Source: Desulfovibrionales bacterium (GTDB lineage Bacteria; Desulfobacterota; Desulfovibrionia; Desulfovibrionales; Desulfonatronaceae). From it: a stretch of 64,000 bases of DNA. The position numbers and the translations under genes are program-made. Location: NCBI GenBank assembly GCA_007693505.1, contig REDL01000051.1, positions 1-64,000 of the forward strand, given 5' to 3'. The notes beneath the pieces were generated by a model. The model was not told the DNA's origin. It saw nothing but the letters and a program-made list of their open reading frames with translations, and made no database searches. This document shows, in pieces, positions 33,341 to 50,272 of the stretch (its first letter is position 1; every line of letters starts with the position of its first letter).

Positions 33341-34588
33341 ATGCAGCCACCATCTCCAGCAACCTGCCTCCCGGTTCAGCCCTGCTATTTCGCCCGCCAT
33401 CCCGTTTTCGAGCGGGACATGACGCTGTGGGGGTATCACCTGCTCTACCGGGATGACGCCATGGCTGAATCGGCACATTTTTCGGATGAGGACAAGGCCA
33501 CGGTCCAGGTGGCCTTGGAGGCGACGCTCTTCTCCAGCGGAAGATCGACAGGAAAACAGAACCTGCTTTTGGAGTTTTCCTCCAGCGCCTTGGCCCATGG
33601 AATCCCCTACGCCATGCCTCCCCAGCAAACAGTCATCAAGCTGACCCCCAACTTGTGCCGGGATGGAGTCCTGGCGAAAAGCATCACCGAGCTGCGCACC
33701 GCCGGATATCGACTGGCCCTGGATGGTCCGCTGGAATCCTGTCGACACATTCTGCATCTGGCTTCCTATCTCATTGTGGATGCCCTGACCACCCCCGCGG
33801 ACATTTTTCTCCAGGAAATGGCCGCAGCGACCAAAACCGGAATCCCGGTCCTGGTCAAACGGATCGAATCACCGGAGATCTTTGAATCAGCCAAGGATTT
33901 GGGGGCGCAGCTTTTTCTGGGCTTTTTTTTCCAGAAACCGGAGATCATCGCCTCGCGAAAACTCTCCTCCATGCAGGTCGTCCGCCTGAAGCTGTTGAAA
34001 ATGCTTGATGCCCACACCGACAACTGGGAGGGAATCGCCAACATCCTGCAAAACGACGTTTCCCTGGCCTACCGCCTGCTGCAATTCATCAACTCCCCAT
34101 TTTTCGGCGTGGTCCAACCGATCACCACGGTGCAACGGGCCATTGGCTATCTTGGAAGCAAACGGGCCAGGCTTTGGTTGCGCATGGTCATTCTTACGGA
34201 CCTCTGTCCACCGGAGAAAACCTCTCAGCTGCCCCTGCTCTCGGCCCAGCGAGCCAGATTTCTGGAACTTGCCGGGGCAAATCGCCAGGATGTCGACAGG
34301 GATGAACTCTTTCTGCTGGGGCTGTTTTCACTGCTGGACGCCATTTTCGACATGCCCATGACCGACCTGGTGGACTACCTGCCCCTGACCGCTGACCTCA
34401 AGGCCACGTTGTGCCGCCGATCCGGCCGGTACACTCCCTGGTTGGACATGGCCATCCATTTTGAGCAAGGCCGATGGGATTGCGTGGACCTCTTGCTCGA
34501 GAAGCTGAATCTGGACCGAATTCATGTCGGAACCAGTTATGCTCAGGCCGTGATCTGGGCTGAAGATTTTTTTCACGCAGCCGGATAA
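33341..34588 (+). CDS. EAL-HDOD (YuxH/CdgJ-type) signalling protein
   Basis: This two-part protein (415 aa) opens with a shortened EAL-like domain (ARHPVFERDMTLWGYHLLYRDD, AGYRLALDGPL, LFLGFFFQKPEII) and ends with an HDOD domain (VRLKLLKMLDAHTDNWEGIANILQNDVSLAYRLLQFINSPFFG, IGYLGSKRARLWLRMVIL). The catalytic ExL residues of active phosphodiesterases are not kept, so it probably works as an effector or binding protein rather than an enzyme, as in YuxH-type proteins. I chose ATG 33341, 43 nt after the kinase stop; the frame extends upstream without a better start. The neighbours suggest it belongs to the same signal route. Confidence 0.85.
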   Translation: MQPPSPATCLPVQPCYFARHPVFERDMTLWGYHLLYRDDAMAESAHFSDEDKATVQVALEATLFSSGRSTGKQNLLLEFSSSALAHGIPYAMPPQQTVIKLTPNLCRDGVLAKSITELRTAGYRLALDGPLESCRHILHLASYLIVDALTTPADIFLQEMAAATKTGIPVLVKRIESPEIFESAKDLGAQLFLGFFFQKPEIIASRKLSSMQVVRLKLLKMLDAHTDNWEGIANILQNDVSLAYRLLQFINSPFFGVVQPITTVQRAIGYLGSKRARLWLRMVILTDLCPPEKTSQLPLLSAQRARFLELAGANRQDVDRDELFLLGLFSLLDAIFDMPMTDLVDYLPLTADLKATLCRRSGRYTPWLDMAIHFEQGRWDCVDLLLEKLNLDRIHVGTSYAQAVIWAEDFFHAAG

Positions 34589-34635
34589 TCCTCGGATACG
34601 GTCTCTTTACTGAAAAGGATTCCCAAGGCTTGCCC

Positions 34636-36066
34636 ATGACGGACCAACCTCTGGTATATTTTGACGTTTCCGTGCTTTGCGTCGAGGACGAGCCGCTGAC
34701 CTTGGAGTATCTGACCACGTTGTTGCGCCCCCACGTACGGGAGATATTCAGTGCCAAGGACGGTCAGGAAGGATTTTTTGAATTTGCCCGCAGCCGCCCG
34801 GATATCGTACTCACGGATATGGAAATGCCCCGTATGGACGGCTTGGAAATGGGGCAAGCCATTCGGTCCCTGTCTTCCACTTCCCAGATCATCCTGATCA
34901 CCGGGCTGGATGATCCGGCCGTTCTCAAGCGCGGCATCCAGCTCAAAGCTGATGGGTTTCTCTCCAAACCCATCTCCTTCCAGGACCTGTTGGGAAGTTT
35001 GGAACGGTGTACCGAAGCAATCCTCGTCCAGCGCGAAGTGCTGATGCAACGCCGGCTGCGCGAACTCATCCTGAACAGCATCCCCTTCCCCCTGACGTTG
35101 CTGAACACCGTCTCCCTTGAGACGCTTTTTGCCAATTCCGAAGCTCAACGCCAAGGCATTGCACCCCATGAGCCAGCCACCGGTCCTTTTTTTCCTGAGT
35201 CGGTCCTCCGGGAAATCCAGGAATCCATGACCATGGCCGAGAAACTGGACCGGATGATGACCCCGACGCAAATCCATGTCGCCGAGCAAACCTGGGAAGT
35301 GAGCGTCACGCCGGTGGCCCCGGAAACTTCGCTGTATGTGGCCGTGGATATCACGGCCCGGGAACAGTTGGAGTCCCTCAAGGCGGATGTGGAGCGGCTG
35401 ACAAGACACGACCTGAAAGGCCCGCTGGGGGGGATTATCGGTTTGACGGATATACTGCTGCATCAGTCGGGGATGGCCCAAGACACCCTGGACACGCTGC
35501 GCATGATCCGCGATTCCGGCCATGCCATGCTCCATCAGATCAATCTTTCTCTGGATCTGTTCAACATGGAACAGGGCACCTACACTTTGTCCCCGATACC
35601 CATAGATATCCCAACCCTGATCCGGGAAACACTGCCTCAAATTGAACAGCACATCCGGATGCGCCAGTTACAGGTGAATATCCACATTGACGGGCGGCCC
35701 CTGACGGGCGCGGAACGCTTTTTTGTCCTTGGAGAAAAGCTGCTCTGCCTTTCGATGCTCTCCAACCTGCTCAAGAACGCCGCCGAGGCCTCGCCGCAAG
35801 GTGGGACCATCACCTTCAACCTGCACGCACTGGCCAGGAGCGCGCAAATCTCCATACACAACAGCTTGGTGGTTCCCGCGGCCATCCGCAATCGCTTCTT
35901 CGAGAAGTACGTCACGGCGGGCAAACGCCATGGCACCGGCCTCGGCGCCTACTCCGCGGCTCTGATCGCCAGAACCCTGGGGGGAACCATTTCCATGGAC
36001 TCTTCCGAGGAACAGGGCACGACCATCTCCGTGGTCCTGCCCCGCCCGCCGGACCAGCCTTCCTGA
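34636..36066 (+). CDS. Response-regulator histidine kinase: REC-PAS-HisKA-HATPase
   Basis: This protein (476 aa) begins with a receiver (SVLCVEDEPLTLEYLTTLL, acceptor in LTDMEMPRMDG, Lys in FLSKPISF), then a PAS-like middle region (~residues 140-245), a dimerisation/phosphoacceptor helix with RLTRHDLKGPLGGIIGLTDILL (His ~257) and an ATPase domain with NLLKNAAEASPQGG and HGTGLGAYSAALIARTLGG. Having the receiver at the N-terminus suggests that it is itself controlled by phosphotransfer, perhaps from the large hybrid kinase upstream. ATG 34636 is preferred over a TTG two codons earlier. Confidence 0.88.
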   Translation: MTDQPLVYFDVSVLCVEDEPLTLEYLTTLLRPHVREIFSAKDGQEGFFEFARSRPDIVLTDMEMPRMDGLEMGQAIRSLSSTSQIILITGLDDPAVLKRGIQLKADGFLSKPISFQDLLGSLERCTEAILVQREVLMQRRLRELILNSIPFPLTLLNTVSLETLFANSEAQRQGIAPHEPATGPFFPESVLREIQESMTMAEKLDRMMTPTQIHVAEQTWEVSVTPVAPETSLYVAVDITAREQLESLKADVERLTRHDLKGPLGGIIGLTDILLHQSGMAQDTLDTLRMIRDSGHAMLHQINLSLDLFNMEQGTYTLSPIPIDIPTLIRETLPQIEQHIRMRQLQVNIHIDGRPLTGAERFFVLGEKLLCLSMLSNLLKNAAEASPQGGTITFNLHALARSAQISIHNSLVVPAAIRNRFFEKYVTAGKRHGTGLGAYSAALIARTLGGTISMDSSEEQGTTISVVLPRPPDQPS

Positions 36067-36091
36067 GCCCGGGGCTGACCCCACCTCACCC

Positions 36092-37306
36092 CTATCCACC
36101 GCCTGTGGCGGGTATGATTGACCGCTCGGGAAACAGGCCCAGCAGTTGGTTGTCGGGTCTCCGGTCCCGGTTGAGGGCGGCCAGGGCGACCCGGCTGCCC
36201 TGCTCGTCTCCGAGAAATACCCCGCCGAGAATCAACCCATTTTCATCCAGAACCAGCTTACGGTAGATCCCCTTATCCTGCTCCTGGTAGACCATGGCCG
36301 GATGCTGTTCCTCCGCATCAATCGTACCAAAGGCTGTCAGGGCGATGGACGCCACTTTCAGGGAGTTGCTCGGTGTCGTGCCCGTATACTCCGCCGACCC
36401 GCCGCCCATGTTCACACCGGCAACCCGGCCCTGCTCCATGGCAGCCGGCCAGATGCCGTAATAGCGCCCCCGGTGCTCGCAGACGTCTCCGGCAGCGTAC
36501 ACTTCCTCGCGCGACGTCCGCATCCGGTCATCCACCCGGACGGCCTTGTCCACCTCCAGTTGAAGGCGCTGGGCCAATGTGAGCTCCGGCCGGACACCGG
36601 CGGAGATCAACACCATGTCCGCTGCCAGGCTGTTTCCGTTGTCCAGAGCCACTTCCAGGCCATCGGTGGTTTCGCGGATCTCCAGTGTTTTGCGGCCCAA
36701 ATGAAAGACAAAACCCATGGCCTCCAAAAGTCCCTGAAGCTGCTTTGCGGCCTGTGGATCGGTTTGCCGGGGCAGCAGACGGGGGAACACTTCCACCACC
36801 TCCACCCGTGCTCCGTCTCGGCGCAGCCCGTTGCCGGCCTCCAGCCCCAGCAATCCACCGCCGATGAGCACCAGCCGTCGTCGTGATCCAGCCATGGCTC
36901 GAATTCGTTGGGCATCGGCCATGGTTCGCAGGGTGCACACCCCTGGGAGGTCCACCCCGGGAAGCGGTGGCATAAAGGCCGTGCCACCGGTGGCCAGGAG
37001 CAGAATGTCGTAAGGTTCTTCCCCGCCCTGGGCCGTGATCACCACTCGTCGGTCCGGATCAATGTCTTGAACCGGACAGTCCAGTCGCAGGTCGATCTCC
37101 CGGCGGGCATACCACCGTGAATCGTGGACAATGAGTTTTTCTGCAGCTTTTTCCCCGGACAGCAGTTCAGGCAAGGCGGGGGTGTAGATGAATCCGTGGG
37201 ATTCCCGGGAAAACATGACGATGGATGCAGCCTGGTCCTGTTTGCGCGTCGCCTCCGCGGCGCTGTTGGCCGCGACGCCGTTGCCGATGATCACAAAGCG
37301 CTTCAT
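36092..37306 (-). CDS. FAD-dependent pyridine nucleotide-disulfide oxidoreductase (NirB N-terminal-like)
   Basis: This flavoprotein (404 aa) has an N-terminal FAD-binding fold (RFVIIGNGVAANSAAEATRK), an NAD(P)-binding fold (RLVLIGGGLLGLEAGNGLRRDG) and the second FAD motif EVYAAGDVCEHRGRYYGIWPAAMEQGRVAG. It resembles the reductase part of assimilatory nitrite reductase and rubredoxin reductases, and lacks redox-active CxxxxC cysteines, so electrons likely pass to an external partner. The ATG overlaps the stop of the upstream DHS-like gene by 4 nt (ATGA). A direct functional link to the DHS-like protein is unknown. Confidence 0.87.
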   Translation of the reverse strand: MKRFVIIGNGVAANSAAEATRKQDQAASIVMFSRESHGFIYTPALPELLSGEKAAEKLIVHDSRWYARREIDLRLDCPVQDIDPDRRVVITAQGGEEPYDILLLATGGTAFMPPLPGVDLPGVCTLRTMADAQRIRAMAGSRRRLVLIGGGLLGLEAGNGLRRDGARVEVVEVFPRLLPRQTDPQAAKQLQGLLEAMGFVFHLGRKTLEIRETTDGLEVALDNGNSLAADMVLISAGVRPELTLAQRLQLEVDKAVRVDDRMRTSREEVYAAGDVCEHRGRYYGIWPAAMEQGRVAGVNMGGGSAEYTGTTPSNSLKVASIALTAFGTIDAEEQHPAMVYQEQDKGIYRKLVLDENGLILGGVFLGDEQGSRVALAALNRDRRPDNQLLGLFPERSIIPATGGG

Positions 37307-38436
37307 GACTGCTTCCCGTCAGCAGGATGCTCCGGATTCACGTTCCTCTGCTCGGATGCGTTCTTGGCCAGACGCTGTTCCAGCGCCTTGACCAGCAGGG
37401 GCCAGACCAGGGTCGCGTCACTGGGCACCTCCGCGTGCCGCCCGCCGTCCTGAGGAGCGACAAACTTGCCCCAGGAAATGCCCTCCTGATAGGTGCAGCC
37501 GCTCAAGCCCCCCCAGTGCACGGGTTCGGGACAAATGCGCACAGCATAGTGAAATCGCCGAGCTGTGGTTTTCATGTCTTCCACACGCTGACTGAGAATT
37601 TCCAGAAATGGCCCGACCTGCTGAGCCCAATTCCGCGGCACTCCACCGCCGATGGTGAATATCCCGATGCGCTTGGCCGCCAGGATGCGCTTGGTGTAAC
37701 TGAACAGATCCAGAAAGGGGTTGAACTGGAATGGAAGTCGGGCCGGGTCATCGATATCCAGGGACTGCCATTCAGGATGGTTGCGCAGCATATACGAGGC
37801 CACGTCCAACGCCAGTTCCGAGTCCGTAAAGGCCGGGATGTAGACCGGAACGTTTTGCGCAAATGCGCTCTTCAAGATCCCCGATCCCTCGTAGTGTTCG
37901 GTCAAATGCCGACCAATGGCCCGACAGAGCATTTCCGAGCTGAGATGGGTATCAGCGGCCACTTCCTCCATCACCCGGGCGATGACCCGCTCAGCCTGCA
38001 TGAAATTGGCTTCCGGCTCCAGGGTGTCATAGACTCGGTTATAGCCCTTTTCAAAGAGCACTGCATCGTTCATCCTGTGCGCTTCGTATTTGTAGTGACG
38101 CAGCCCGATGGACTCGATGAAGCCATGGGCCATCAACGCCCCGGTGGAGACGATAATGTCCAACCAGCCGTTATCGATCATTCGGCAGAGCACTTTGCCC
38201 ATCTTGGCCACGGTCATCGCTCCGGAAAAGGTGCCGACAACGATACAGTCCGGGTCAGCAACCATGGCTTCCAGGACATCCAGGGCTTCTCCCAGGCATC
38301 TGCCCCCGAACGCAGTACGGGACATGGCCGTCACCAGCTCGTCAAAGTCCTCCACAGCGTCCAAGTCCAGGGTCTTCAGGGGTGTCAGTCCGTCTTCCTC
38401 GCCATTGCGCAAGGTGTCGATGCGTCGAATGTTCAT
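37303..38436 (-). CDS. Deoxyhypusine synthase-like protein 1
   Basis: This 377-residue protein shows the deoxyhypusine synthase fold: VGTFSGAMTVAKMGKVLCRMIDNGWLDIIVSTGALMAHGFIE, IPAFTDSELALDVASYML, IFTIGGGVPRNWAQQ, CTYQEGISWGKF and SDATLVWPLLV. In true DHS a lysine after the GGG turn forms the enzyme intermediate; here that position appears to be arginine (GGGVPRNW). Bacteria have no eIF5A, so the substrate is probably a polyamine. It lies downstream of pyruvoyl arginine decarboxylase on the same strand, with a terminator-like hairpin between. ATG 38436 is preferred; an extended frame to 38529 covers the hairpin and is not DHS-like. Confidence 0.85.
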   Translation of the reverse strand: MNIRRIDTLRNGEEDGLTPLKTLDLDAVEDFDELVTAMSRTAFGGRCLGEALDVLEAMVADPDCIVVGTFSGAMTVAKMGKVLCRMIDNGWLDIIVSTGALMAHGFIESIGLRHYKYEAHRMNDAVLFEKGYNRVYDTLEPEANFMQAERVIARVMEEVAADTHLSSEMLCRAIGRHLTEHYEGSGILKSAFAQNVPVYIPAFTDSELALDVASYMLRNHPEWQSLDIDDPARLPFQFNPFLDLFSYTKRILAAKRIGIFTIGGGVPRNWAQQVGPFLEILSQRVEDMKTTARRFHYAVRICPEPVHWGGLSGCTYQEGISWGKFVAPQDGGRHAEVPSDATLVWPLLVKALEQRLAKNASEQRNVNPEHPADGKQS

Positions 38437-38469
38437 CTCGTCCAGCAGAGCTCCATGAAATGTTGCCGC

Positions 38470-38510
38470 CGCAATAAAAAAGGCCGAGGGGAAGCGGCTT
38501 CCCCTCGGCC
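38470..38510 (-). terminator. Strong hairpin with T run between the arginine decarboxylase and DHS-like genes
   Basis: Read on the minus strand, GGCCGAGGGGAAG pairs with CTTCCCCTCGGCC (13 bp, 3-nt loop, 38482-38510) and is followed by TTTTTT. An outer pair TTATTGCGG/CCGCAATAA flanks it. It can end transcription after the decarboxylase or act as an attenuator for the DHS-like gene 33 nt further. Confidence 0.88.
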
Positions 38511-38538
38511 TGGTTATTGCGGGTATCAAAAGGTTGTG

Positions 38539-39087
38539 TCAGGGAAGAAACACCGCTGCGGAAACCGTGGTGGTCCAAACTCCGGCTTGGCCGGTGGTCA
38601 CAACGGGCGCCGAGGCGGAATCGATGATTTTTCCACTCATCAGATAGATCTGTCTGCGCTCATCGTAGGCCGTTTCCGGGTTAAAGTCCACGCCCTGGGT
38701 CGTGGCCAGCATGGTGGATGCCAGGTCCTCGGCAAAGTCTCCCAGCTCTTGTTCGTCGGCTCCAAAGGCAGTGTGTTCGGAAATGTAGCCGTAATGCTCC
38801 TTGCTGGCCGGAAAGGCCATGCCCACGGCCGAGCCGACCAATCGGCCCTTCTCGTTGGTCGCGTTGCGAGCCATCACGCAAAAAGTGATCTGCCCCGGAC
38901 TGAGCTGCTTCACGCCTTCATCCACGCTGACCATTTTACAGTTTGGCGGGAAAATACTGGACACATAGACGAGATTCAGCTTCTCGATTCCGGCATCACG
39001 CAAGGCCAGCTCGAAAGACTGGAGCTTGTTTTTGTGCCGACCGATACCCCTGGTGAAAAACGCCTGCCGCGGTACGAAATTGATCAT
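38539..39087 (-). CDS. Pyruvoyl-dependent arginine decarboxylase
   Basis: This enzyme (182 aa) turns arginine into agmatine using a pyruvoyl group made by self-cleavage. The sequence MINFVPRQAFFTRGIGRHKNKLQSFELALRDAGIEKLNLVYVSSIFPPNCK places the Ser-Ser cleavage site (VYVSSIFPP) near residue 43-44, and GQITFCVMARNATNEKGRLVGSAVGMAF is the conserved core that follows. AGGAGG lies 8 nt before the ATG at 39087; the frame extends 19 codons further without support. It is the likely first step of polyamine synthesis here, next to a DHS-like gene. Confidence 0.92.
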   Translation of the reverse strand: MINFVPRQAFFTRGIGRHKNKLQSFELALRDAGIEKLNLVYVSSIFPPNCKMVSVDEGVKQLSPGQITFCVMARNATNEKGRLVGSAVGMAFPASKEHYGYISEHTAFGADEQELGDFAEDLASTMLATTQGVDFNPETAYDERRQIYLMSGKIIDSASAPVVTTGQAGVWTTTVSAAVFLP

Positions 39088-39140
39088 GATATGATCCTCC
39101 TGAACGATATATTTCCACTCCCTGGTGGAAGTGAACTGCC

Positions 39141-39812
39141 TCATAAGGATTTTTTGGCCCGAAGAAAAGGGTCGGCGACGCCTATCGCCTGGAGACGCGC
39201 CCTGGCCTGGTCCGCTTCACCCTGCCCCCCCCGGACTGTGACCAGTACACGATACCATTGCCGCCCATCCACCAAGCCGGCCTCAACGCTTGCCCGCAAC
39301 CCCACGGCGGCAATCTGCTGCTGCAAGGCCCGGGCCTGGGGTTCGGTCTGAAACGAAGCAACCTGGTAGACAAATTCAAAGCGCTCCTGCTGCGGTTCCG
39401 GGGTGGTGGCCGCCGGTGCAGGCGGCGGCGCGGGCGGTGACTCCTGAGATGGGGAAACCTGATGTGACGGAGGGGGCACACTGGGCGCTGGCGGTTCAGG
39501 TCGGCGCGGCGCAATGGGAGCTGGCTGGCTGCCCCGCTCCTGCAACGTATCGTGGAACCGCAATTCCTCAGGTTGCAGCACGGTTCGCGGGCTGGAGAGG
39601 AATGGTTCCTGGGGGCTGACAATCCGCCCGATATCCGGAATCACCGACTCCGGATGGTACCCTCGCCCGACCAGGATCCCCAGGATAAACGCCCAGACCA
39701 TGATCAGCACGCCGATAAATCCCACGCCCATGACTCCAGGCAACCCAAGTTCAAAGCTCCAGCGCCTGCCCTTTTTCCCGGCAGCGGATGATTTGCTTCG
39801 CTTTTGCGCCAT
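39141..39812 (-). CDS. SPOR-domain membrane protein
   Basis: This protein (223 aa) has a short basic cytoplasmic start, one transmembrane helix (GLPGVMGVGFIGVLIMVWAFILGILVG), a long proline-rich periplasmic linker (~residues 75-145) and a C-terminal SPOR domain (FVYQVASFQTEPQARALQQQIAAVGLRASVEAGLVDGRQWYRVLVTVRGGQGEADQARARLQAIGVADPFL). SPOR domains bind denuded peptidoglycan at the septum, so a role in cell division is likely. It begins 11 nt after argS on the same strand. A low-complexity Pro/Ala segment spans the linker. Confidence 0.9.
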   Translation of the reverse strand: MAQKRSKSSAAGKKGRRWSFELGLPGVMGVGFIGVLIMVWAFILGILVGRGYHPESVIPDIGRIVSPQEPFLSSPRTVLQPEELRFHDTLQERGSQPAPIAPRRPEPPAPSVPPPSHQVSPSQESPPAPPPAPAATTPEPQQERFEFVYQVASFQTEPQARALQQQIAAVGLRASVEAGLVDGRQWYRVLVTVRGGQGEADQARARLQAIGVADPFLRAKKSL

Positions 39813-39823
39813 GAGCAGGCCGA

Positions 39824-41482
39824 TTACATCTTCTGCGGGGCAGCAACACCCAGCAGATCCAGGCCATTGCGCAGCACCTGAGCCACGGCCCGGCACAAAG
39901 CCAGCCGAGCCTGAACCAGTTCCTGAGAGCCCGCGGCCAAAACCGGATGGGTTGCATAGTAACGATGCAGTTTCCCAGCCAGATCCAACAGATAATGGCT
40001 AAGATGGTGCGGACTCAGGGTAGCTGAAGCGGAAACCAGGACGTTCCCGAACTGATCCAGAGTCTTGAGCAGCTCCAGATCGGCTTCTCCGTCGAGCAGA
40101 GCCAGGATTTCCGGCTTCGGCTGCAGCAAATCCACCCCGGCTTCCGCGGCCTTGGCCAGCAAGGAATGGATCCGGGCATGGGCATACTGGACATAGTAGA
40201 CCGGGTTGTCCATGGTTTGACGCTTGACCAGTTCCAGGTCGAAATCAAGGTGGCTGTCGCTTTTGCGGCTGAGAAAGATGAACCGGGCCGCGTCCGTGCC
40301 TACCTCGGCGCAGACATCAGCCAGGGTTTCAAATTCCCCGGCCCGAGTGGACATGGCGATCTGCTCCCCGGCTCGAAGCAGGTTGACCAATTGGACCAAA
40401 ATAACCTGGAGATCTTCCGGAACCCGCCCCAGGGCTTGGGCCGCGGCCTTCATCCGGCCGACATAGCCATGATGATCAGCTCCCCAGATGTCCACCACCA
40501 GATCGAATCCACGAGCGAACTTGTCCGCATGGTAGGCGATGTCCGAGGCGAGGTAGGTCAGGGAGCCATCAGACTTGCGAAGCACCCGGTCCTTGTCGTC
40601 GCCGTACCGGGTACTGGCGAACCAAAGCGCCCCATCTTGCTCATAGGCCAATCCGTCCATCCGCAACTGCTCCAGGGTACGCTCCACGGCCCCATCCCGG
40701 ATCAAGCCGGATTCGGAAAACCAGACTTGGTGCTCAACCCGAAAATCCAGAAGATCCTGACGGATTCCGGCCAGGATGCGATCCATGGCGTGTTCACGTG
40801 CCCTGTCCAGGGCTTCCTGCTCCGGCAGGTCGGCCAATCGTTCCCCGTCTCGGTCCAGCAACTCTTGGGCAAGCTCCCGGATATAGTCTCCCTTGTATCC
40901 ATCCTCGGGAAAAACCACATCATGACCAAGCAGTTCCTGGTATCGGGCCAGGACCGATGCGCCCAGAAGCCGCATCTGCCGACCCGCATCGTTGAGGTAG
41001 TATTCCGTGGCCACGCGATGTCCCATGAACCGCAGAATCCGAGCCAGACTGTCCCCCAGGGCGGCCCCGCGTCCGTGACCGATGTGCAGTGGTCCTGTGG
41101 GGTTGGCGGAAACAAATTCCACCTGCACCCGCCGTCCACCGCCCAAGTCGGATTGACCGTACAGGTCCCCCTGCTCTAAAATCGCCAAAATGCCCTCCTG
41201 CCAGAAGGCCGGAGCCAATGTGAAGTTCAGGAATCCCGGTCCCGCCGTCTCCACCATGGCCAGCTGCGGATCACCAAGCAGCTTCAGGCGCTGCTCCATA
41301 TCCTGGCAGATCTGCCGGGGATTCTTCCCCGCGGTTTTGGCCAGGGTAAAGGCCATGTTCGTGGCCAGATCGCCAAAGCGCTTATCGCGCGGTGGCTCGA
41401 GAGTCGTTCCTGCTGTCCACTGCAGCCCGTGCTCGTCCAGAAAAGGCTTCAGCAATTCCCGTAAATAGGTTTGTGCGCGCAT
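39824..41482 (-). CDS. argS: Arginyl-tRNA synthetase
   Basis: This is a class I synthetase (552 aa). The N-terminal Add-1 domain is followed by the catalytic core with the HIGH motif in VSANPTGPLHIGHGRGAALGDSLAR, then KSDGSLTYLASDIAYHADKF and IWGADHHGYVGRMKAAAQALG. The KMSKS site is degenerate (IAMSTRAGEF), as is usual for ArgRS, and the DALR anticodon-binding domain with HARIHSLLAKAAEAGVDL closes the protein. ATG 41482 starts MRAQTYLREL; a TTG extension to 41515 is possible but not needed. It is followed by the SPOR gene. Confidence 0.96.
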   Translation of the reverse strand: MRAQTYLRELLKPFLDEHGLQWTAGTTLEPPRDKRFGDLATNMAFTLAKTAGKNPRQICQDMEQRLKLLGDPQLAMVETAGPGFLNFTLAPAFWQEGILAILEQGDLYGQSDLGGGRRVQVEFVSANPTGPLHIGHGRGAALGDSLARILRFMGHRVATEYYLNDAGRQMRLLGASVLARYQELLGHDVVFPEDGYKGDYIRELAQELLDRDGERLADLPEQEALDRAREHAMDRILAGIRQDLLDFRVEHQVWFSESGLIRDGAVERTLEQLRMDGLAYEQDGALWFASTRYGDDKDRVLRKSDGSLTYLASDIAYHADKFARGFDLVVDIWGADHHGYVGRMKAAAQALGRVPEDLQVILVQLVNLLRAGEQIAMSTRAGEFETLADVCAEVGTDAARFIFLSRKSDSHLDFDLELVKRQTMDNPVYYVQYAHARIHSLLAKAAEAGVDLLQPKPEILALLDGEADLELLKTLDQFGNVLVSASATLSPHHLSHYLLDLAGKLHRYYATHPVLAAGSQELVQARLALCRAVAQVLRNGLDLLGVAAPQKM

Positions 41483-41527
41483 TGGAATGGTATGATTCCC
41501 GTATGGTTTGGTCAAAAAATCTATTGA

Positions 41528-42469
41528 TCAGGCAGATGTCGAGAGCGCTTCCAGCTGATCCAGCCCCTGAACATTCTTTGCTTCCCAGGGCTCGTCCTTT
41601 TTGGCCAGAATTGCACTGACCAAACGGGTCAAGACACCTTTGGGACCGGGCTCAATCCAGGTTCGCGCCCCGTCATGCCATTGCGCCTGAACGCTTTGGG
41701 TCCAGAGCACGGAGGAGGTCATCTGTTCGGCCACCAGGGCTTCAATCCGGACCGGGTCCGACTCCACGGCAGCGGAGACGTTAAAATAGACCGGAACACG
41801 CGGTTCGCGCCAATCCAGTTTTCGCAGCACACGGGCGAATTCCCGGGCTGGTTCGCGCATCAATGAGCTGTGAAAGGCTCCGCTTACGGCCAGTGGAACG
41901 GCCCGCCCCTTGCGCTCCTTGACCAGCCCCGCGGCCTGGTCCACAAGTACCGCGTTCCCGCTGATCACAAACTGTGCCGGCGAGTTGTCGTTGGCAATGC
42001 GCAGTTCCCCATTGTTGCGCACCGTGTCCACGATTTCCTGGACCACTTCCCTGGGCAATTTGAGGATTGCGGCCATCTTCCCGCCAGAGGCCGCTCCGGC
42101 CTCGTCCATCAACCGACCTCGCAAGGCGGTCAGCTCAAGGACATCGGGAATCTCCAGGACGCGCGCCGCGGCCAAAGCGGCAAACTCACCCAGGCTGTGC
42201 CCTGCCAGGGCGTCCGGGGCAAGATGCTCACGCCCCACAATCCACAGGGCCAAGGTCGTCGCGGTCATGGCCGGCTGCAGATATCTGGTACAGGCCATAT
42301 CTGTTTCCGCACCGTCCCAGTAGATCTCCCGAAGTGGCGCCCCGGCGGCCTTTTCGGCACGTCTCCACAATTCCATGGCCTCAGGGAAACGTTCCGCCAC
42401 ATCACGCCCCATCCGCGGCTCCTGGGAACCCTGCCCCGGAAAGACCACGACGGTTTTTGCTTTGCTCAT
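41528..42469 (-). CDS. fabD: Malonyl-CoA:acyl-carrier-protein transacylase
   Basis: The enzyme (313 aa) loads malonyl groups onto ACP for fatty acid synthesis. It shows VVVFPGQGSQEPRMGRDV, the active serine in ALAGHSLGEFAALAAARVL, VSGAFHSSLMREPAREF (catalytic histidine) and IEPGPKGVLTRL. Length matches the family. ATG 42469 follows GAGGAAGAGAG. It stands apart from other fab genes and is followed by argS 45 nt downstream. Confidence 0.95.
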   Translation of the reverse strand: MSKAKTVVVFPGQGSQEPRMGRDVAERFPEAMELWRRAEKAAGAPLREIYWDGAETDMACTRYLQPAMTATTLALWIVGREHLAPDALAGHSLGEFAALAAARVLEIPDVLELTALRGRLMDEAGAASGGKMAAILKLPREVVQEIVDTVRNNGELRIANDNSPAQFVISGNAVLVDQAAGLVKERKGRAVPLAVSGAFHSSLMREPAREFARVLRKLDWREPRVPVYFNVSAAVESDPVRIEALVAEQMTSSVLWTQSVQAQWHDGARTWIEPGPKGVLTRLVSAILAKKDEPWEAKNVQGLDQLEALSTSA

Positions 42470-42547
42470 CTCTCTCTTCCTCGCTTTTACCGCCCATAAA
42501 CCCGGAACGGCTTGCATTTTTCCCCATGATCGGCCAAGGATCGCTCC

Positions 42548-43219
42548 ATGACGGCCAAACCAACGCCCTCGCCGGTTTTTCCAACATCAAACCAAATAAT
42601 TGAGCTGGCCTCCAAACTTGGACGCACCCTGACCATGGAGCAAGCCCAAGGGCTGAATCAGTACCTTGACTTGCTGCTCCAGTGGAATCAACGGATGAAT
42701 CTGGTTGGACCCGGCAACTGGAGAAAAATTCTTGGGGATCTGGTGGCGGATAGTTGGCTCCTGGCCGATTTCCTGAAAAACCTGCCCCTGCCCGATGCTC
42801 CACGGACCGTGGACCTGGGAGCCGGCGCCGGGCTGCCCGGACTCCCCTTGCGGCTCTTCTGGCCGCCGGGCAGTTACCACCTGGTGGAAATCCGCCGGAA
42901 ACGCACGGCGTTTCTGCTCCAGGCCGTCGCGGCCATGCGCTTGAATCGGACCGTGGTCCTGCCCGAGCATGCCGAAAAGGCCCTACCGACCCTGGCCCCA
43001 TTGGATCTGTGTCTAAGCCGGGCATTTTTGCCCTGGCCCCAACTGCTGGAGCTGGTCCGCCCCTGGCTGGGGCCAGGCGGCCTGGTCGTGATCATGGCCA
43101 ATGAGCCCCCACCAGGATCCTTTCCAGTTCCATGGCTGCTTCAGGCCATGTATTCGTACCCCTCGGGAAACAAAACCCGCTACTTCTGGTCCTTGGCCGC
43201 GGCTGTCATTTCCAGATAG
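42548..43219 (+). CDS. rsmG: 16S rRNA (guanine527-N7)-methyltransferase RsmG
   Basis: This SAM-dependent methyltransferase (223 aa) modifies G527 in 16S rRNA. It has LNQYLDLLLQWNQRMNLVGPG at the start, the SAM site TVDLGAGAGLPGLPLRLFWP, and LVEIRRKRTAFLLQAVAAMRLNRTVVLPEHAEK, all typical of GidB/RsmG. The ATG at 42548 follows AAGGA. It is divergent from fabD, and its last 40 nt overlap a small minus-strand gene convergently. Confidence 0.93.
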   Translation: MTAKPTPSPVFPTSNQIIELASKLGRTLTMEQAQGLNQYLDLLLQWNQRMNLVGPGNWRKILGDLVADSWLLADFLKNLPLPDAPRTVDLGAGAGLPGLPLRLFWPPGSYHLVEIRRKRTAFLLQAVAAMRLNRTVVLPEHAEKALPTLAPLDLCLSRAFLPWPQLLELVRPWLGPGGLVVIMANEPPPGSFPVPWLLQAMYSYPSGNKTRYFWSLAAAVISR

Positions 43220-43398
43220 GATCCCTTGAAGATGGCTTCGGTGGCCGCGGCGTCGGCAGCCTCGCCCAAGTCCATCAATTTCTCCAGAAAATCCAGGATC
43301 AGGAAACGGTCGTTCTCGCATCCGTCCTGGAAATCCTGGACGAGTTGGCCGCTGGCAAGCAGCTCCTCGATTTCCCGCAAACAGTCCATGGGAAGCAT
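43180..43398 (-). CDS. Small conserved-looking hypothetical protein
   Basis: I do not recognise this 72-residue, mostly helical acidic protein (MDCLREIEELLASGQLVQDFQDGCENDRFLILDFLEKLMDLGEAADAAATEAIF). It overlaps the end of rsmG by 40 nt on the opposite strand. AGGG lies 7 nt before the ATG at 43398; another ATG at 43404 is too close to it. Composition looks protein-like rather than random, but nothing shows its role. Confidence 0.5.
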   Translation of the reverse strand: MLPMDCLREIEELLASGQLVQDFQDGCENDRFLILDFLEKLMDLGEAADAAATEAIFKGSYLEMTAAAKDQK

Positions 43399-43714
43399 AG
43401 TCATGCCCTAATGCTAAAATGCTTAATCCTTGATACCAAGTCTTTCCGCAAAAACAACTATCATGGCAGGAAAGTTGATATTCGTAAAGACTGAAAAACA
43501 ACTGCATCCTGGTCACAAACACGCTGACAGGAACGTCCTCCTGCGCCCCCATCGGAATCAGGCCTTGCGCCAGTGCAGGACAGTTTGGTGTTTCATCAAT
43601 GTTATGGTAGCAAGTCTGAAAAAATGAGAGAAAACGTTGCGGTCACATGCGTGAGGTCACTGCAAAAAGTCCCTTTTCCTGCGAAAACGTGTGATGTGAT
43701 TTTGCTCAACACCT

Positions 43715-43765
43715 TGGAAAGACTGGATTCCGGCTTTCGCCGGAATGACGAATTTCAAGGTTTTG
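43715..43765. repeat. REP-like intergenic palindrome
   Basis: ATTCCGGC (43727-43734) and GCCGGAAT (43739-43746) form a perfect 8-bp stem with a 4-nt TTTC loop, flanked by CCTTGGAAA and TTTCAAGG that extend the pairing with one bulge. The core tggattccggctttcgccgg is a repeat type seen in many proteobacterial genomes. The 460-nt gap (43399-43858) holds nothing else I can name apart from the ribosome-binding site of the next gene. Confidence 0.75.
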
Positions 43766-43858
43766 CGACTTTCTACAGCAACATCATGCGTCATGAGAGA
43801 CAACAAAAAGCAGCCCCGCAACCGTGACCGTGAGTGGTCATAACCACCCGGAGAAACC

Positions 43859-44554
43859 ATGAGCGCGAATTTTCAATCCCATCTCAAAGAGGTCGGCCTT
43901 GCTGTCCTGCCCATCACCCTGGTGGTGGTCCTCCTGCAGATTTTTCTGGTCAACATGCCCTGGGTTGTTTTCGCCCGCTTCCTGATCGGCGTAGCCATGG
44001 TTCTCCTCGGGCTCTTGCTGTTTTTGCAGGGAGTGAAAATCGGTCTGCTGCCCATGGGCGAAGCCGTGGGTGCTGAACTGCCCAAACACGGGTCAATGGT
44101 CTTTCTGCTTTTTTTCGCCTTTCTGCTCGGCTTTGTCGTGACCGTGGCCGAGCCGGATGTCCGGGTTCTGGCGCACCAGGTGGACTTCGTCTCCGGAGGA
44201 TTGGTCGAAAGCAACGTTCTGATTCTCACCGTCGCCCTGGGAGTGGCTGTCTTCGTGGCCATGGCCATGCTGCGCATTGTGCTGAAAACGCCGATCACCT
44301 GGCTATTGGTCGGCGGGTATCTGATGATTCTCATTCTTTCGTTCATCACCCCCGCGGCCTTCGTACCCATTGCCTTTGATGCCGGTGGGGTAACCACCGG
44401 CCCGGTTACCGTGCCCTTTATTCTCGCCCTTGGCCTCGGCACGGCCGCGGTCATAGGTGGGCGCTCCTCCTTTGCCGACGGCTTCGGCTTGATCGGCTTG
44501 GCCTCCATCGGTCCGGTGATTGGCGTGATGATCCTGGGAATGCTTTACGGATGA
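43859..44554 (+). CDS. DUF1538 membrane transporter subunit (UmpA-like)
   Basis: This 231-residue membrane protein has about seven hydrophobic helices and the DUF1538 signature FLLGFVVTVAEPDVRVLAHQVDFVSGG, with FVPIAFDAGGVTTGPVTVPFILALGLG near the end. Paired DUF1538 proteins (UmpA/UmpB) have been reported from Halomonas as a Na+(Li+, K+)/H+ antiporter. GGAG lies 6-7 nt before the ATG. Its last four bases overlap the start of the second DUF1538 gene, so the two are coupled and probably form a heteromer. Confidence 0.85.
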   Translation: MSANFQSHLKEVGLAVLPITLVVVLLQIFLVNMPWVVFARFLIGVAMVLLGLLLFLQGVKIGLLPMGEAVGAELPKHGSMVFLLFFAFLLGFVVTVAEPDVRVLAHQVDFVSGGLVESNVLILTVALGVAVFVAMAMLRIVLKTPITWLLVGGYLMILILSFITPAAFVPIAFDAGGVTTGPVTVPFILALGLGTAAVIGGRSSFADGFGLIGLASIGPVIGVMILGMLYG

Positions 44555-45279
44555 GCGAACTTCTGGATTTCCTGCACTTCGGCCACGTTTCCTGGGAAGT
44601 CTTCCAGGCCCTGGTCCCGCTGATGGGCTTCTTTATCTTCTTCCAGGCCGTTTATCTGAAATTGCCCATTTCGTACGTGGTGAACATGGTTAAAGGCTTG
44701 GCCCTGACCATGGTCGGGCTGGCCCTGTTCCTGCAAGGCGTCAAGGTAGGATTTATGCCGGTAGGCACCCAGATGGGCGAAATCCTCGGCGCCATGGACA
44801 GCAAATGGCTGCTCATGCCCATCGGATTTCTCCTGGGACTGGTGGCCACCGTGGCCGAGCCGGCGGTGCGCATCTTGAGTTATGAAGTGGAAAAAGCCTC
44901 TGCCGGAAGCATCAGCGAACGATCGATCCTGATCACCCTCTCCCTGGGAGTGGCCCTGTTTGTGGCCCTGGGCATGGCCAAGATAATTTACGGCGTTCCC
45001 ATCCACTACATCATCGTTCCGGGCTATATATTGGCCCTGATACTGATGCGCTTTGCGGACCACACCTTCGTGGCCATCGCCTTTGACGCCGGCGCGGTGG
45101 CCACCGGTCCAATGACCGTAACCTTTGTTCTGGCCGTGGCCCTGGGTATTGCCTCGGCCATTGACGGCCGTGATCCAATCCTGGACGGCTTCGGCTTGAT
45201 TGCTCTGGTGGCCATGGCCCCGATTCTCTCGGTCATGATCCTGGGCCTTGTTGTGACCTTCATCCGGAAAAGGAGTTGA
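44551..45279 (+). CDS. DUF1538 membrane transporter subunit (UmpB-like)
   Basis: This 242-residue membrane protein is a paralog of its upstream neighbour, with the same landmarks: FLLGLVATVAEPAVRILSYEVEKASAG and FVAIAFDAGAVATGPMTVTFVLAVALGIASAIDGRDP. It begins at ATG 44551 within an ATGA overlap. Conserved Glu/Asp residues in the membrane motif could carry ions. The PII-like gene starts 2 nt after its stop, implying that the transporter is controlled by this protein. Confidence 0.85.
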   Translation: MSELLDFLHFGHVSWEVFQALVPLMGFFIFFQAVYLKLPISYVVNMVKGLALTMVGLALFLQGVKVGFMPVGTQMGEILGAMDSKWLLMPIGFLLGLVATVAEPAVRILSYEVEKASAGSISERSILITLSLGVALFVALGMAKIIYGVPIHYIIVPGYILALILMRFADHTFVAIAFDAGAVATGPMTVTFVLAVALGIASAIDGRDPILDGFGLIALVAMAPILSVMILGLVVTFIRKRS

Positions 45280-45281
45280 GC

Positions 45282-45620
45282 ATGGAAGTGGGTGTCCCGT
45301 TCGACCTGATCGTCACCATTGTCAACAAGGGGCATAGTGAAACGGTCATTACCGCGTCCAAGGAAGCCGGTGCCGAAGGGGGGACGATCATCCCAGGCCG
45401 AGGTACGGGCATTCGGGAAAATAAAAAGCTCTGGGGGATTCCCATTGAGCCGGAAAAAGACATTGTTTTGACCATCGTTCCCCAGGAAAATTCTGATGCT
45501 GTTCTCAAGGCCATTGTCAAGGCCAGCAAACTGGACAAGCCGGGTGCCGGGATATCATTCGTCCTGGAACTGACAAAGGTCGCCGGCATCTGCCACATGT
45601 GCATGTTGGACCAGGAGTGA
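45282..45620 (+). CDS. PII-like signal protein
   Basis: This 112-residue protein has the PII ferredoxin-like fold pattern: DLIVTIVNKGHSETVITASKEAGAEGGTIIPGRGTG, a short T-loop-like region, then DIVLTIVPQENSDAVLKAIVKASKLDKPGAGISFVLEL. It lacks the classical T-loop tyrosine and ends with CHMCM, a CxxC pair that canonical GlnB/GlnK do not have. AGGAG stands 6 nt before the ATG at 45282. As PII proteins normally gate transporters, it probably regulates the two DUF1538 subunits. Confidence 0.85.
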   Translation: MEVGVPFDLIVTIVNKGHSETVITASKEAGAEGGTIIPGRGTGIRENKKLWGIPIEPEKDIVLTIVPQENSDAVLKAIVKASKLDKPGAGISFVLELTKVAGICHMCMLDQE

Positions 45621-45660
45621 ACCGGTTTATTGCCGCCCTTCGCAGGGCGGCTCAACATGC
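45601..45660. terminator. Bidirectional hairpin between convergent genes
   Basis: GCCGCCCT (45632-45639) and AGGGCGGC (45644-45651) form an 8-bp stem with a TCGC loop. An outer perfect pair, GCATGTTG (45601-45608) and CAACATGC (45653-45660), encloses the PII-like stop codon. There is no long T run, but the position between convergent genes fits transcript ends on both strands. Confidence 0.6.
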
Positions 45661-45671
45661 TTGCAAGCGGC

Positions 45672-46694
45672 TTACCAGCCCAGCAAATAGGCGAACATCA
45701 ACGGCGCAACAATGGTCGCATCTGACTCGACAATAAACTTGGGCGTGTCCACTCCCAGCTTGCCCCAGGTAATTTTTTCATTCGGGATGGCTCCGGAATA
45801 TGAACCGTAACTGGTGGTGCTGTCGCTGATCTGGCAGAAGTAGCCCCAGAGAGGAACGTCGGTACGTTCCATATCCTGATGCAACATGGGCACAACACAG
45901 ATTGGAAAGTCTCCGGCGATCCCCCCCCCGATCTGGAACATGCCCAGGGGGGCTTGCTTGGTGCTCTGGCTGTAATAATCAGCCAGCCAGGTCATGTATT
46001 CGATCCCGGTGCGCACGGTGTGCACATTTTTCACCTCGCCCCGTAACACCGCGGCGGCGTACATGTTGCCCAGGGTGGAGTCTTCCCAACCCGGCACGAC
46101 CATGGGCACGTTCTTTTCCATGGCCGCCAGCATCCAGGAATTCTGGGGATCAATCTGGTAGGATGGGGCAAGATCTCCGCTGGCCAGAATCTGCCGGAAA
46201 AATTCATGGGGAAAGTAGCGCTCTCCCTTGGCATCCGCTTCTGTCCAGACCTGGAGCATGGCTTTCTCAATCCGCCGCATGGCCTCCATTTCCGGAATGC
46301 AGGTGTCCGTGACCCTGTTCATATGCCGAGCCAACAATGCTGCTTCGTCCTGCGGGGTGAGGTCCCGGTAATTGGGCACCCGTTCGTAATAATCGTGAGC
46401 CACGAGGTTGAAGACGTCCTCTTCCAGATTGGCTCCGGTGCAGACGATCAAGTGCACCTTGTCCCGACGAATCATCTCGGCCAGGGACAACCCCAGCTCC
46501 GCCGTACTCATGGCCCCGGCCAGGGTAACCATCATTTTCCCGCCTCCAACCAAAAATTCCCCATAAGCCTGCGCCGCGTCCACCAGGGCCGCGGCGTTGA
46601 AATGCCGATAATGATGCGTGATGAACGACCCTACGGGGCCGAGTTGCGTAACTTCTTGCGATTTGACACGTATTTTTCTCTCAGCCGAACACAT
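45672..46694 (-). CDS. Deoxyhypusine synthase-like protein 2
   Basis: This second member of the DHS family (340 aa) diverges strongly from the one at 37303-38436. It has MMVTLAGAMSTAELGLSLAEMIRRDKVHLIVCTGANLEEDVFNLVAHDYY, MVVPGWEDSTLGNMYAAAVL, MFQIGGGIAGDFPICVVP, PNEKITWGKLG and SDATIVAPLMF. The position that holds the catalytic lysine in eukaryotic DHS reads GGGIAGDF, with no lysine. Its product may be a polyamine or something else; the family is poorly characterised in bacteria. AAGGAG lies 8 nt before the ATG at 46694; a GTG two codons upstream is too close to it. Confidence 0.85.
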   Translation of the reverse strand: MCSAERKIRVKSQEVTQLGPVGSFITHHYRHFNAAALVDAAQAYGEFLVGGGKMMVTLAGAMSTAELGLSLAEMIRRDKVHLIVCTGANLEEDVFNLVAHDYYERVPNYRDLTPQDEAALLARHMNRVTDTCIPEMEAMRRIEKAMLQVWTEADAKGERYFPHEFFRQILASGDLAPSYQIDPQNSWMLAAMEKNVPMVVPGWEDSTLGNMYAAAVLRGEVKNVHTVRTGIEYMTWLADYYSQSTKQAPLGMFQIGGGIAGDFPICVVPMLHQDMERTDVPLWGYFCQISDSTTSYGSYSGAIPNEKITWGKLGVDTPKFIVESDATIVAPLMFAYLLGW

Positions 46695-46909
46695 GAACAC
46701 ATCTCCTTATGAATCATAAAAATGAAATGACGCGCCGATACCGGCACACTTCCGGCTTCGGATAATCGGAGCCACGACTTCCGTCAATTTGGGCCGCGGT
46801 CCAGCACCTGAGGCGGATTTGCTCAAAAGCCCGTCAAAAATGTGCTTGAATAGCGGGATTCAAGGCTTTGCTTCTGGACGCTGCGACCACGTTAGGATAC
46901 AAGTCCGCC

Positions 46910-48763
46910 ATGGGATACAACACGTTGCAGGCCTGCATTCACGATTTGGAGGCCGCCGGAAGACTGGTCCGTCTGGACATGGAAGTGGATCCGTACCTGG
47001 AAGCCGGGGTTATCCAGCGCCGGGCCTACCAGGCCGGGGGACCGGCCCTGCTTTTCACCAAGGTCAGGGGATGCCGCTTCCCCATGCTGGGCAATCTGTT
47101 CGGCACCCTGGACCGGGCACGGTATATTTTCCGAGACACCCTGCCGGCCCTGGAAAAGCTGGTCCGGCTGAAGGTCGATCCGGGGGATGCGCTACGCGCA
47201 CCCTGGAAACAACTGGGGCTGGTCCGCACTCTGTGGAACGCCCGGCCCAGGTTTGTATCCAACGGGCCGATCCTGGCCGCAAGCTGCGCCCTGTCCGACC
47301 TGCCCAACCAGGTATCCTGGCCCAGGGACGGAGGGGCCTTTGTCACCTTGCCCCAGGTCTACTCCGAAAGTGTAGAAAAACCGGGTTGGCGTCACTCAAA
47401 CCTGGGCATGTACCGGGTTCAATTCTCCGGAGGGCAGTACGCCTCCAATCGCGAGGCCGGGCTGCACTACCAGATCCACCGTGGCATCGGGGTACACCAT
47501 ACCCAGGCCCTGAAACGCGGCGAACCGCTTCGGGTCAACGTTTTCATCGGCGGACCGCCGGCCATGACCCTGGCCGCGGTGATGCCGTTGCCCGAAGGCA
47601 TGCCGGAAATCAGCTTCGCCGGAATGCTCGGCGGGCGACGCCTGGAGCTGGTCCACTCCGCCAACGGATTGCCCATGCCGGCCCAGGCCGACTTCTGCAT
47701 TTCCGGGACGATCGACCCAACCAAGACCTTGCCGGAGGGCCCCTTTGGGGACCACCTGGGCTATTACAGCCTGGCCCATGACTTCCCGGTCATTGCCGTG
47801 GACCGTGTCCATCATCGACCGGACGCGGTCTGGCCCTTTACCACAGTGGGCCGCCCGCCCCAGGAAGACACCACCTTTGGGGCGATGATCCACGAACTGA
47901 CCGGAGAGGCCATTCCCACGGTTCTGCCGGGAGTCCGCGCCGTACATGCCGTGGACGCCGCCGGTGTGCATCCACTTTTGCTGGCTCTGGGCAGCGAGCG
48001 CTATGTTCCTTATGAAACCGAACGAGCTCCCAGGGAACTCCTCACCCAGGCCAACGCCATCCTTGGCCAGGGCCAGCTCTCCCTGGCCAAATACCTGCTG
48101 ATTGCCGACCAGAATGATGATTCCCGCCTGGACATCCACGACATCGCCGCATTTTTCCGTCATGTGCTCTCGCGAGTGGATTGGACCCGGGATCTGCACT
48201 TTCAGACCCGCACCACCGTGGACACCCTGGACTATTCCGGCCTGGGCCTGAACGAAGGCTCCAAGGTGGTCGTCGCCGCTGCTGGCCCTGAGCGACGCGA
48301 ATTGCCCGCCGTGCTCCCCGCGGACCTGCGCCTGCCCGATGGCTTCCACTCCCCACATCCCTGCACCCCGGCCGGACTGCCTGGGGTCCTGGCCGTCCAG
48401 GGACCACCCTGTCGCCGCCCGCGTCATGCCCAGGATCCGGCCATGGCCGAATTCTGCATCGAGATGCATGCCGCCGGCCGCCTTACGGACTGGCCCCTGG
48501 TCGTCGTCGCCGACAACAGTGCCTTTGTCGCGCAAAATCTGAACAACTTTGTCTGGACCACCTTCACCCGATCCGACCCGGCATGCGATATATATGGGGC
48601 TGGGGTGGCCACGATCTGCAAGCACTGGGGCTGCACCGGCTCCCTGGTCATCGATGCCCGAACCAAGCCTCACCATGCCCCGGCCCTGGAACCGGACACG
48701 GACGTGGAAAAACGGGTGGATCAGTTGGCGGCCAAAGGCGGGCCGCTGGCGGGGCTGTGGTAA
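46910..48763 (+). CDS. UbiD-family decarboxylase
   Basis: This 617-residue protein belongs to the prenylated-FMN-dependent UbiD decarboxylases. It shows LVRLDMEVDPYLEAGVIQRR at the start, GMYRVQFSGGQYASNREAGLHYQIHRGIGVHH (cofactor and metal site), GPFGDHLGYYSLAHDFPVIAV (the conserved GPFGDHxGYY segment) and ADNSAFVAQNLNNFVWTTFTRSDPACDIYG. Members act in quinone synthesis or aromatic acid metabolism; the substrate cannot be named, and no UbiX partner is in the window. ATG 46910 gives the family start; a TTG at 46868 is an alternative. Confidence 0.87.
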   Translation: MGYNTLQACIHDLEAAGRLVRLDMEVDPYLEAGVIQRRAYQAGGPALLFTKVRGCRFPMLGNLFGTLDRARYIFRDTLPALEKLVRLKVDPGDALRAPWKQLGLVRTLWNARPRFVSNGPILAASCALSDLPNQVSWPRDGGAFVTLPQVYSESVEKPGWRHSNLGMYRVQFSGGQYASNREAGLHYQIHRGIGVHHTQALKRGEPLRVNVFIGGPPAMTLAAVMPLPEGMPEISFAGMLGGRRLELVHSANGLPMPAQADFCISGTIDPTKTLPEGPFGDHLGYYSLAHDFPVIAVDRVHHRPDAVWPFTTVGRPPQEDTTFGAMIHELTGEAIPTVLPGVRAVHAVDAAGVHPLLLALGSERYVPYETERAPRELLTQANAILGQGQLSLAKYLLIADQNDDSRLDIHDIAAFFRHVLSRVDWTRDLHFQTRTTVDTLDYSGLGLNEGSKVVVAAAGPERRELPAVLPADLRLPDGFHSPHPCTPAGLPGVLAVQGPPCRRPRHAQDPAMAEFCIEMHAAGRLTDWPLVVVADNSAFVAQNLNNFVWTTFTRSDPACDIYGAGVATICKHWGCTGSLVIDARTKPHHAPALEPDTDVEKRVDQLAAKGGPLAGLW

Positions 48764-48766
48764 ATT

Positions 48767-49501
48767 CTAGTCCAATCCAAGCTGAGCCAGCAGATCATCC
48801 ACGTCGTTCTGGTTGGTCGTTGTCTGCGGTCCCTTGAGTTCCGAGGCCTTTTGCCGGGTTTCCGTGTGCAGGGCACGCAGATCCCTGTCCGGGTCCTCAT
48901 TCAACCCCTTGATTTTCAACCCTGTTGTCACAAACAGTTCCTTGGTGATCTGTTCCACCTGCTTGATGGCGGTGACGATCTTCTTGATTCGCTGACCGGT
49001 CAGATCCTGAAAGGACAACGCGGTCATAATCCGCATAAAGTCCTCGTTCAGACGTTGATTGGTGGCGAGCAGGGCGTTCACGTCCGCGGCCCTGGCCCCC
49101 CCGCTACGAAAACGTTCCAGAATCGCTGTCATTTCCGCCTGGAGCTCCATCTGGTTCTCCACGATGTCCATCACCTGTTCCGCTGCCTGCTCCGTAGCCT
49201 TCAAAATCTCATCCAATTGATCCGAGGCCTCGGAAATCAGGGCCGACGCGTGCCCACCGTCCAGTGGCGAAGCTTCTCCATCCAGCTTTTTGGCCTGGGC
49301 GATCTCCCTGTAGATTTGTTTCAAGCCTTCCTGCAGTTCCTCGTTCAAGGTCCGATAGAATTCGCCCTGCATCAATGAACGGCTAATGTTTTTTTGCAGC
49401 TCCTTTTCCAGAGCCTGGGCCATGGAACGGCGCAACTCTCCGGAAAGGCGATCAGCGATTCGGTCCACAAAGCGATCTGTAAACTCAGTGTTGTTGAACA
49501 T
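48767..49501 (-). CDS. cheZ: CheZ-like protein phosphatase of CheY
   Basis: This protein (244 aa) is a long four-helix-bundle protein that dephosphorylates CheY-P. It has ILKATEQAAEQVMDIVENQMELQ, the catalytic segment ALSFQDLTGQRIKKIVTAIKQVE (the Asp and Gln of the FQDLTGQ motif act on CheY) and the C-terminal CheY-binding tail DVDDLLAQLGLD. No other chemotaxis genes are in the window. ATG 49501 is used; a longer frame runs upstream to 49549. Confidence 0.88.
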   Translation of the reverse strand: MFNNTEFTDRFVDRIADRLSGELRRSMAQALEKELQKNISRSLMQGEFYRTLNEELQEGLKQIYREIAQAKKLDGEASPLDGGHASALISEASDQLDEILKATEQAAEQVMDIVENQMELQAEMTAILERFRSGGARAADVNALLATNQRLNEDFMRIMTALSFQDLTGQRIKKIVTAIKQVEQITKELFVTTGLKIKGLNEDPDRDLRALHTETRQKASELKGPQTTTNQNDVDDLLAQLGLD

Positions 49502-49585
49502 GATATTGTCCCATGGTGTTGTTCTCCTCGACCGGACCTTTGGTTGCAATAGAAATTTTCGCAGGCGGTGTGCGCAGTAGGGATT

Positions 49586-50272
49586 TCAAAGAGAGTGTAA
49601 TGTATTACGCCGTTTGCCATGCCGCCGACCGGTGATCACGCCAACCAGCCAGGCCACGAAGAACAACGAGCCTCCAGCCAGAAACCACCTGAAACGGTCC
49701 TGGGATTGCAACATGCTGTTTTCTTCACGCAGCCGCCTTGTCTCCTGCAGCAGCACGTCCATGTCGGCCGTCAACTGAACATACCGCAACCGCAAATCCT
49801 CGACTTCTGCGGCGTCCGAACGAAATGCGGCGTATTCCCGGTCCAGGTCCAACAGCTTGTTGGAGGTTTCGGACAAGGTTTCCAGCAACTTTTGATTGAC
49901 TTCCTCCAGTTCGGCAAGCTGACCCAATGCGCCGCTGGAGGCTTCGTACAGCGCGTCATATTCCCGTCGAAGCTCTTGGTAGCGTAGCGTGAGCGGAACG
50001 TCACGTGTGGTGAAGCGTTGCAACACCCAGCCTTCGATACCATCGGGCCCCCGCACTTGCAGCCATCCGGCCTGTTCGGACAAGGCCTCCATTTCCGCGC
50101 CAGCGGGCAACATGCGCAAAATCCGGTGGTCCGTGGACGGCCCGGCCCTCTTGGATATTTCGCGAACGTCCGACACATAAACGGTTTCCGCAGCGGCACG
50201 GTCCGGCATGCCCACCAGGACGAACACCAGAAAAGTCCCGACTGTTATCAGGATGCTTTGACATGACTGCAT
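49586..50272 (-). CDS. SH3-domain/coiled-coil membrane protein (YgiM-like, TIGR04211)
   Basis: This 228-residue exported protein has a signal peptide (ILITVGTFLVFVLVGMPDRAAA), a bacterial SH3 domain (VYVSDVREISKRAGPSTDHRILRMLPAGAEMEALSEQAGWLQVRGPDGIEGWVLQRFTT), a long coiled coil (~residues 95-190) and a C-terminal transmembrane helix (WFLAGGSLFFVAWLVGVITG) ending in basic residues. The layout is that of E. coli YgiM. Its role is unknown, probably in the envelope. ATG 50272 follows GAGG. Confidence 0.85.
   Translation of the reverse strand: MQSCQSILITVGTFLVFVLVGMPDRAAAETVYVSDVREISKRAGPSTDHRILRMLPAGAEMEALSEQAGWLQVRGPDGIEGWVLQRFTTRDVPLTLRYQELRREYDALYEASSGALGQLAELEEVNQKLLETLSETSNKLLDLDREYAAFRSDAAEVEDLRLRYVQLTADMDVLLQETRRLREENSMLQSQDRFRWFLAGGSLFFVAWLVGVITGRRHGKRRNTLHSL

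Follow-up and report, generated by a model that had tools for sequence, protein, structure and literature searches.

What does a deoxyhypusine synthase (DHS)-like protein make in a bacterium that encodes it beside an arginine decarboxylase, and does it lack, as a preliminary description of this locus proposed, the lysine that forms the reaction intermediate in DHS? The genes lie in a 64,000-nucleotide stretch (positions 1 to 64,000, here referred to as "the window") of contig REDL01000051.1 from a Desulfovibrionales bacterium (assembly GCA_007693505.1). The adjacency of the pair was reported correctly: both genes are on the minus strand, the decarboxylase gene matching PF01862 and the DHS-like gene PF01916. 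The features relevant to this analysis are as follows.

36092..37306, minus strand: pyridine-nucleotide-disulphide oxidoreductase, its start overlapping the DHSL1 stop by 4 nt
37303..38436, minus strand: DHSL1, deoxyhypusine-synthase-family protein of 377 aa, GGGVPRNW subfamily (PF01916, E=2.7e-73)
37465..37467, minus strand: codon of DHSL1 K324, equivalent to human DHS Lys329 (catalytic)
37471..37485, minus strand: codons of DHSL1 E318-G-I-S-W322, with the equivalents of human E323 and W327
37633..37635, minus strand: codon of DHSL1 R268 (GGGVPRNW), equivalent to human K287, not K329
38481..38511, minus strand: strong terminator-like hairpin with a T run after it, separating the decarboxylase gene from DHSL1
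38539..39144, minus strand: pyruvoyl-dependent arginine decarboxylase (PvlArgDC) proenzyme (PF01862, E=4.2e-57)
45672..46700, minus strand: DHSL2, second DHS-like paralogue, GGGIAGDF type (PF01916, E=1.8e-40)
45759..45761, minus strand: codon of DHSL2 catalytic lysine K314, in EKITWGK

The preliminary description held that the intermediate-forming lysine is replaced by the arginine of GGGVPRNW. The motif is indeed present, and its arginine is R268. In human DHS, however, the motif GGGVVK ends at K287 and is followed by H288, and it is not the Lys329 site; the intermediate-forming Lys329 lies in E323-A-V-S-W327-G-K329 (residues counted in the PDB alignment). Alignment with human DHS around Lys329 places K324 of DHSL1, in EGISWGK, at K329, where it would do the same job; this correspondence is based on the sequence alignment and the spacing, since the structure aligner gives ranges only. 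The apparent anomaly arose because the GGGVVK/GGGVPR motif was misread as the Lys329 site, and a missing catalytic lysine is ruled out by the alignment and the residue count. The equivalents of K329, E323, and W327 are invariant in 23/23 diverse aligned homologues, and E..SWGK, a stretch that was no part of the search patterns used for the genome scan, is kept in all 80 scan loci. Furthermore, a count over all retrieved loci found the catalytic lysine unchanged whether the upstream motif residue was R, K, G, or A. The K329A, W327A, and H288A substitutions inactivate human DHS (PMC10042821), a mutant series that lends support to this choice of catalytic lysine. With K324 present and invariant, the premise for a different mechanism is gone; a DHS-like protein working without this lysine has nothing in its favor after alignment, and we regard it as next to impossible. 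Four retrieved open reading frames of the GGGIAGDF type have TWEK in place of TWGK, with the lysine itself unchanged.

GGGVPRNW is instead the signature of a subfamily distinct from the GGGVPKN[YF] and GGGIAGDF types. Sequences with the arginine form one group in a quick tree (support 0.81), and the genome scan found the motif in Desulfobacterota, Nitrospirota, Acidobacteriota, Planctomycetota, Myxococcota, and DPANN archaea. Because the scan itself looked for this motif, as one of its two patterns, it cannot gauge how variable the arginine is; a motif-independent phylum search with an alignment profile found R in every high-scoring match with a readable motif. As judged from these sequences, the arginine is the mark of a widespread bacterial and archaeal subfamily and not a catalytic residue. 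A false anomaly is thus removed, its arginine being the marker of a large subfamily.

Membership of DHSL1 in the DHS family is clear: it scores 247 bits against PF01916 (cut-off, 27) and carries its catalytic lysine, K324, in SWGK. The AlphaFold model (mean pLDDT, 88) aligns with human DHS at a Z score of about 34 over >300 residues. DHSL1 resembles the human enzyme (1DHS, 6XXJ) in its whole fold and in the equivalents of D238, E323, W327, and K329; it differs in having only about 21% identity and in the changes H288 to N269, D243 to L210, and D316 to L311. Both H288 and D243 are needed for the activity of human DHS (PMC10042821). The other non-GDF bacterial homologues compared likewise have N at H288 and I, L, or F at D243. 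The score against the true-DHS equivalog, TIGR00321, is 172 bits, below the cut-off of 304. That the target of DHSL1 might be a protein, for instance EF-P, and not a small amine is suggested by its homology to true DHS; yet no eIF5A family match (PF01287), the substrate of a true DHS, was found in the host genome, the neighbors of DHSL1 are polyamine synthesis genes, and human D243 and D316 are changed in it, so that we consider protein modification very improbable.

The neighboring gene has the features of an archaeal-type PvlArgDC. Its product scores above the cut-offs of PF01862 (193 bits; cut-off, 22.7) and TIGR00286 (128.8 bits; cut-off, 106.95) and carries the self-cleavage motif SSIFPP, with S63 encoded at 38956-38958; it differs from that type in falling slightly below the cut-off of NF009064 (192 bits; cut-off, 207). 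It is the single copy of arginine decarboxylase in the host genome.

The start of DHSL1 is probably the ATG at 38436, not the TTG at 38529, because the TTG lies upstream of the terminator-like hairpin and because sequence conservation, in a comparison with five congeners, begins only at the ATG. All six congeners that have DHSL1 carry a hairpin and T run between the two genes, with differing stem sequences. No Rfam family matched anywhere in 34000-50000. Since the hairpin separates them, the two genes may be separate transcription units in this genus; a simple two-gene operon here is doubtful, and the functional link between decarboxylase and DHSL1 rests mostly on other genera. On the other side of DHSL1, the 4-nt overlap with the oxidoreductase gene suggests translational coupling. 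A 674-aa open frame on the plus strand (37327-39351) is antisense to both genes and was treated as a shadow ORF.

Relatives of DHSL1 adjoin genes for arginine decarboxylase, agmatinase, or agmatine deiminase, in clusters of the types decarboxylase-DHSL1-deiminase, decarboxylase-agmatinase-DHSL1, and agmatinase-DHSL1. Two loci (L084 and L085) have amidase, decarboxylase, DHSL1, and deiminase all together. At least one of these genes lies within about 4 kb of the DHSL1 homologue in 45 of the 80 scan loci, many of which are shortened by contig ends; a decarboxylase is found in 33, an agmatinase in 24, and a deiminase in 11. This is the company, arginine decarboxylase with agmatinase or deiminase/amidase, kept by SpeY, the DHS-like homospermidine synthase of Anabaena and others (PMC10407285, PMC9992855), which is clustered with these same genes and uses putrescine (PMC10407285). 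DHSL1 is like SpeY in belonging to the DHS family, in this company, and in having no eIF5A link; it is unlike SpeY in carrying R in place of K where human K287 aligns, and in scoring 157 bits against the homospermidine biosynthesis protein model NF001980 (NCBIfam; cut-off, 450).

A second known system is CdmS, the caldomycin synthase of Thermus thermophilus (TTHA1570), which uses agmatine, the guanidines of caldomycin being removed in Thermus by a ureohydrolase (PMC10981699). DHSL1 shares with CdmS the DHS fold, the catalytic lysine, the glutamate (E293 in CdmS, E318 in DHSL1), and leucine in place of D316. The host differs from the CdmS system in having a deiminase and no match to the agmatinase/arginase family (PF00491) in a family search of its genome. 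It encodes an agmatine deiminase and N-carbamoylputrescine amidase pair away from DHSL1, the amidase being named from its sequence and position. Family searches of the host genome also gave no match for AdoMet decarboxylase and only a sub-cut-off match for carboxynorspermidine decarboxylase; these searches went family by family and, for the spermidine routes, covered these two markers. The literature search turned up no useful account of homospermidine in sulfate reducers.

Taken with these systems, the evidence makes it likely that DHSL1 is an ordinary enzyme of the SpeY/CdmS kind that builds a homospermidine skeleton by the usual DHS chemistry through a lysine imine, its activity, substrate, and product all being inferred. 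Agmatine would be formed from arginine by the pyruvoyl decarboxylase. NAD-bound DHSL1 would oxidize a 4-carbon donor amine, and the aminobutyl (or guanidinobutyl) group, bound to K324 as an imine, would then pass to a second amine and be reduced, giving the homospermidine skeleton. Guanidine would be converted to amine by the deiminase/amidase pair here and by agmatinase in many relatives. Homospermidine or an agmatine derivative as the product, which the preliminary description suggested, agrees with the gene neighborhoods and the precedents of SpeY and CdmS; the different mechanism that it suggested does not hold, K324 being intact. We file DHSL1 as working like SpeY/CdmS, not as a proven member, because both equivalog cut-offs are unreached. 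Against the SpeY/CdmS assignment stand these equivalog scores, N269 and L210, the absence of DHSL1 from two of eight congeners, and the hairpin. As an aid to annotation, a gene labelled "deoxyhypusine synthase" in the bacteria that carry this subfamily probably codes for a polyamine synthase, whose substrate would be putrescine or agmatine.

Between these substrates, putrescine seems somewhat more likely than agmatine. As a substrate sub-case of the same explanation, DHSL1 could couple two agmatines to caldomycin, as CdmS does (PMC10981699), with the guanidines removed later by the deiminase and amidase. The neighboring decarboxylase would supply the agmatine, and L210 and L311 are nonpolar like F204 and L286 of CdmS (residues as published). 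The nonpolar replacements of D243 and D316 recur, however, in DHS-like proteins of cyanobacteria and alphaproteobacteria (loci L150 and L151), one of which adjoins a type III PLP-dependent enzyme and not an arginine decarboxylase; this recurrence rules them out as a marker of agmatine specificity. In addition, DHSL1 reaches only 177 bits against the CdmS model NF002699 (NCBIfam; cut-off, 500). Coupling of two agmatines is therefore a minority possibility, and the full route, in which deiminase and amidase strip caldomycin to homospermidine through carbamoyl intermediates, is less probable again; if true, it would be a variant without description in the cited literature.

DHSL2, the second DHS-like paralogue, is encoded in the same window and is about 28% identical to DHSL1. 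It keeps the catalytic lysine (K314), the glutamate, and the tryptophan. DHSL2 could be the working homospermidine synthase, with DHSL1 an accessory that might, for example, make a second product or serve as a subunit of a mixed tetramer, a precedent being the DHS heterotetramer of trypanosomatids (PMC3663545). DHSL2 relatives adjoin decarboxylase and agmatinase genes (loci L163 and L164), and DHSL2, the decarboxylase, and the deiminase are present in 8/8 congeners, while DHSL1 is present in 6/8; in the other two (L152 in G005 and L153 in G002), the decarboxylase is in place and DHSL2 is kept, with DHSL1 absent genome-wide. In contrast to a dead paralogue, DHSL1 retains the lysine, glutamate, and tryptophan, and in one genome (G047) DHSL1 occurs without any match to DHSL2; an accessory role for DHSL1 thus seems unlikely to us. 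With these three residues in both proteins, neither resembles a catalytically dead paralogue of the trypanosomatid DHSp type, and activation of a live paralogue by a dead one is not supported, the lysine being kept in both. Elsewhere in the window, 43859-45279 on the plus strand encodes tandem DUF1538 proteins related to the UmpA/UmpB Na,Li,K/H antiporter subunits.
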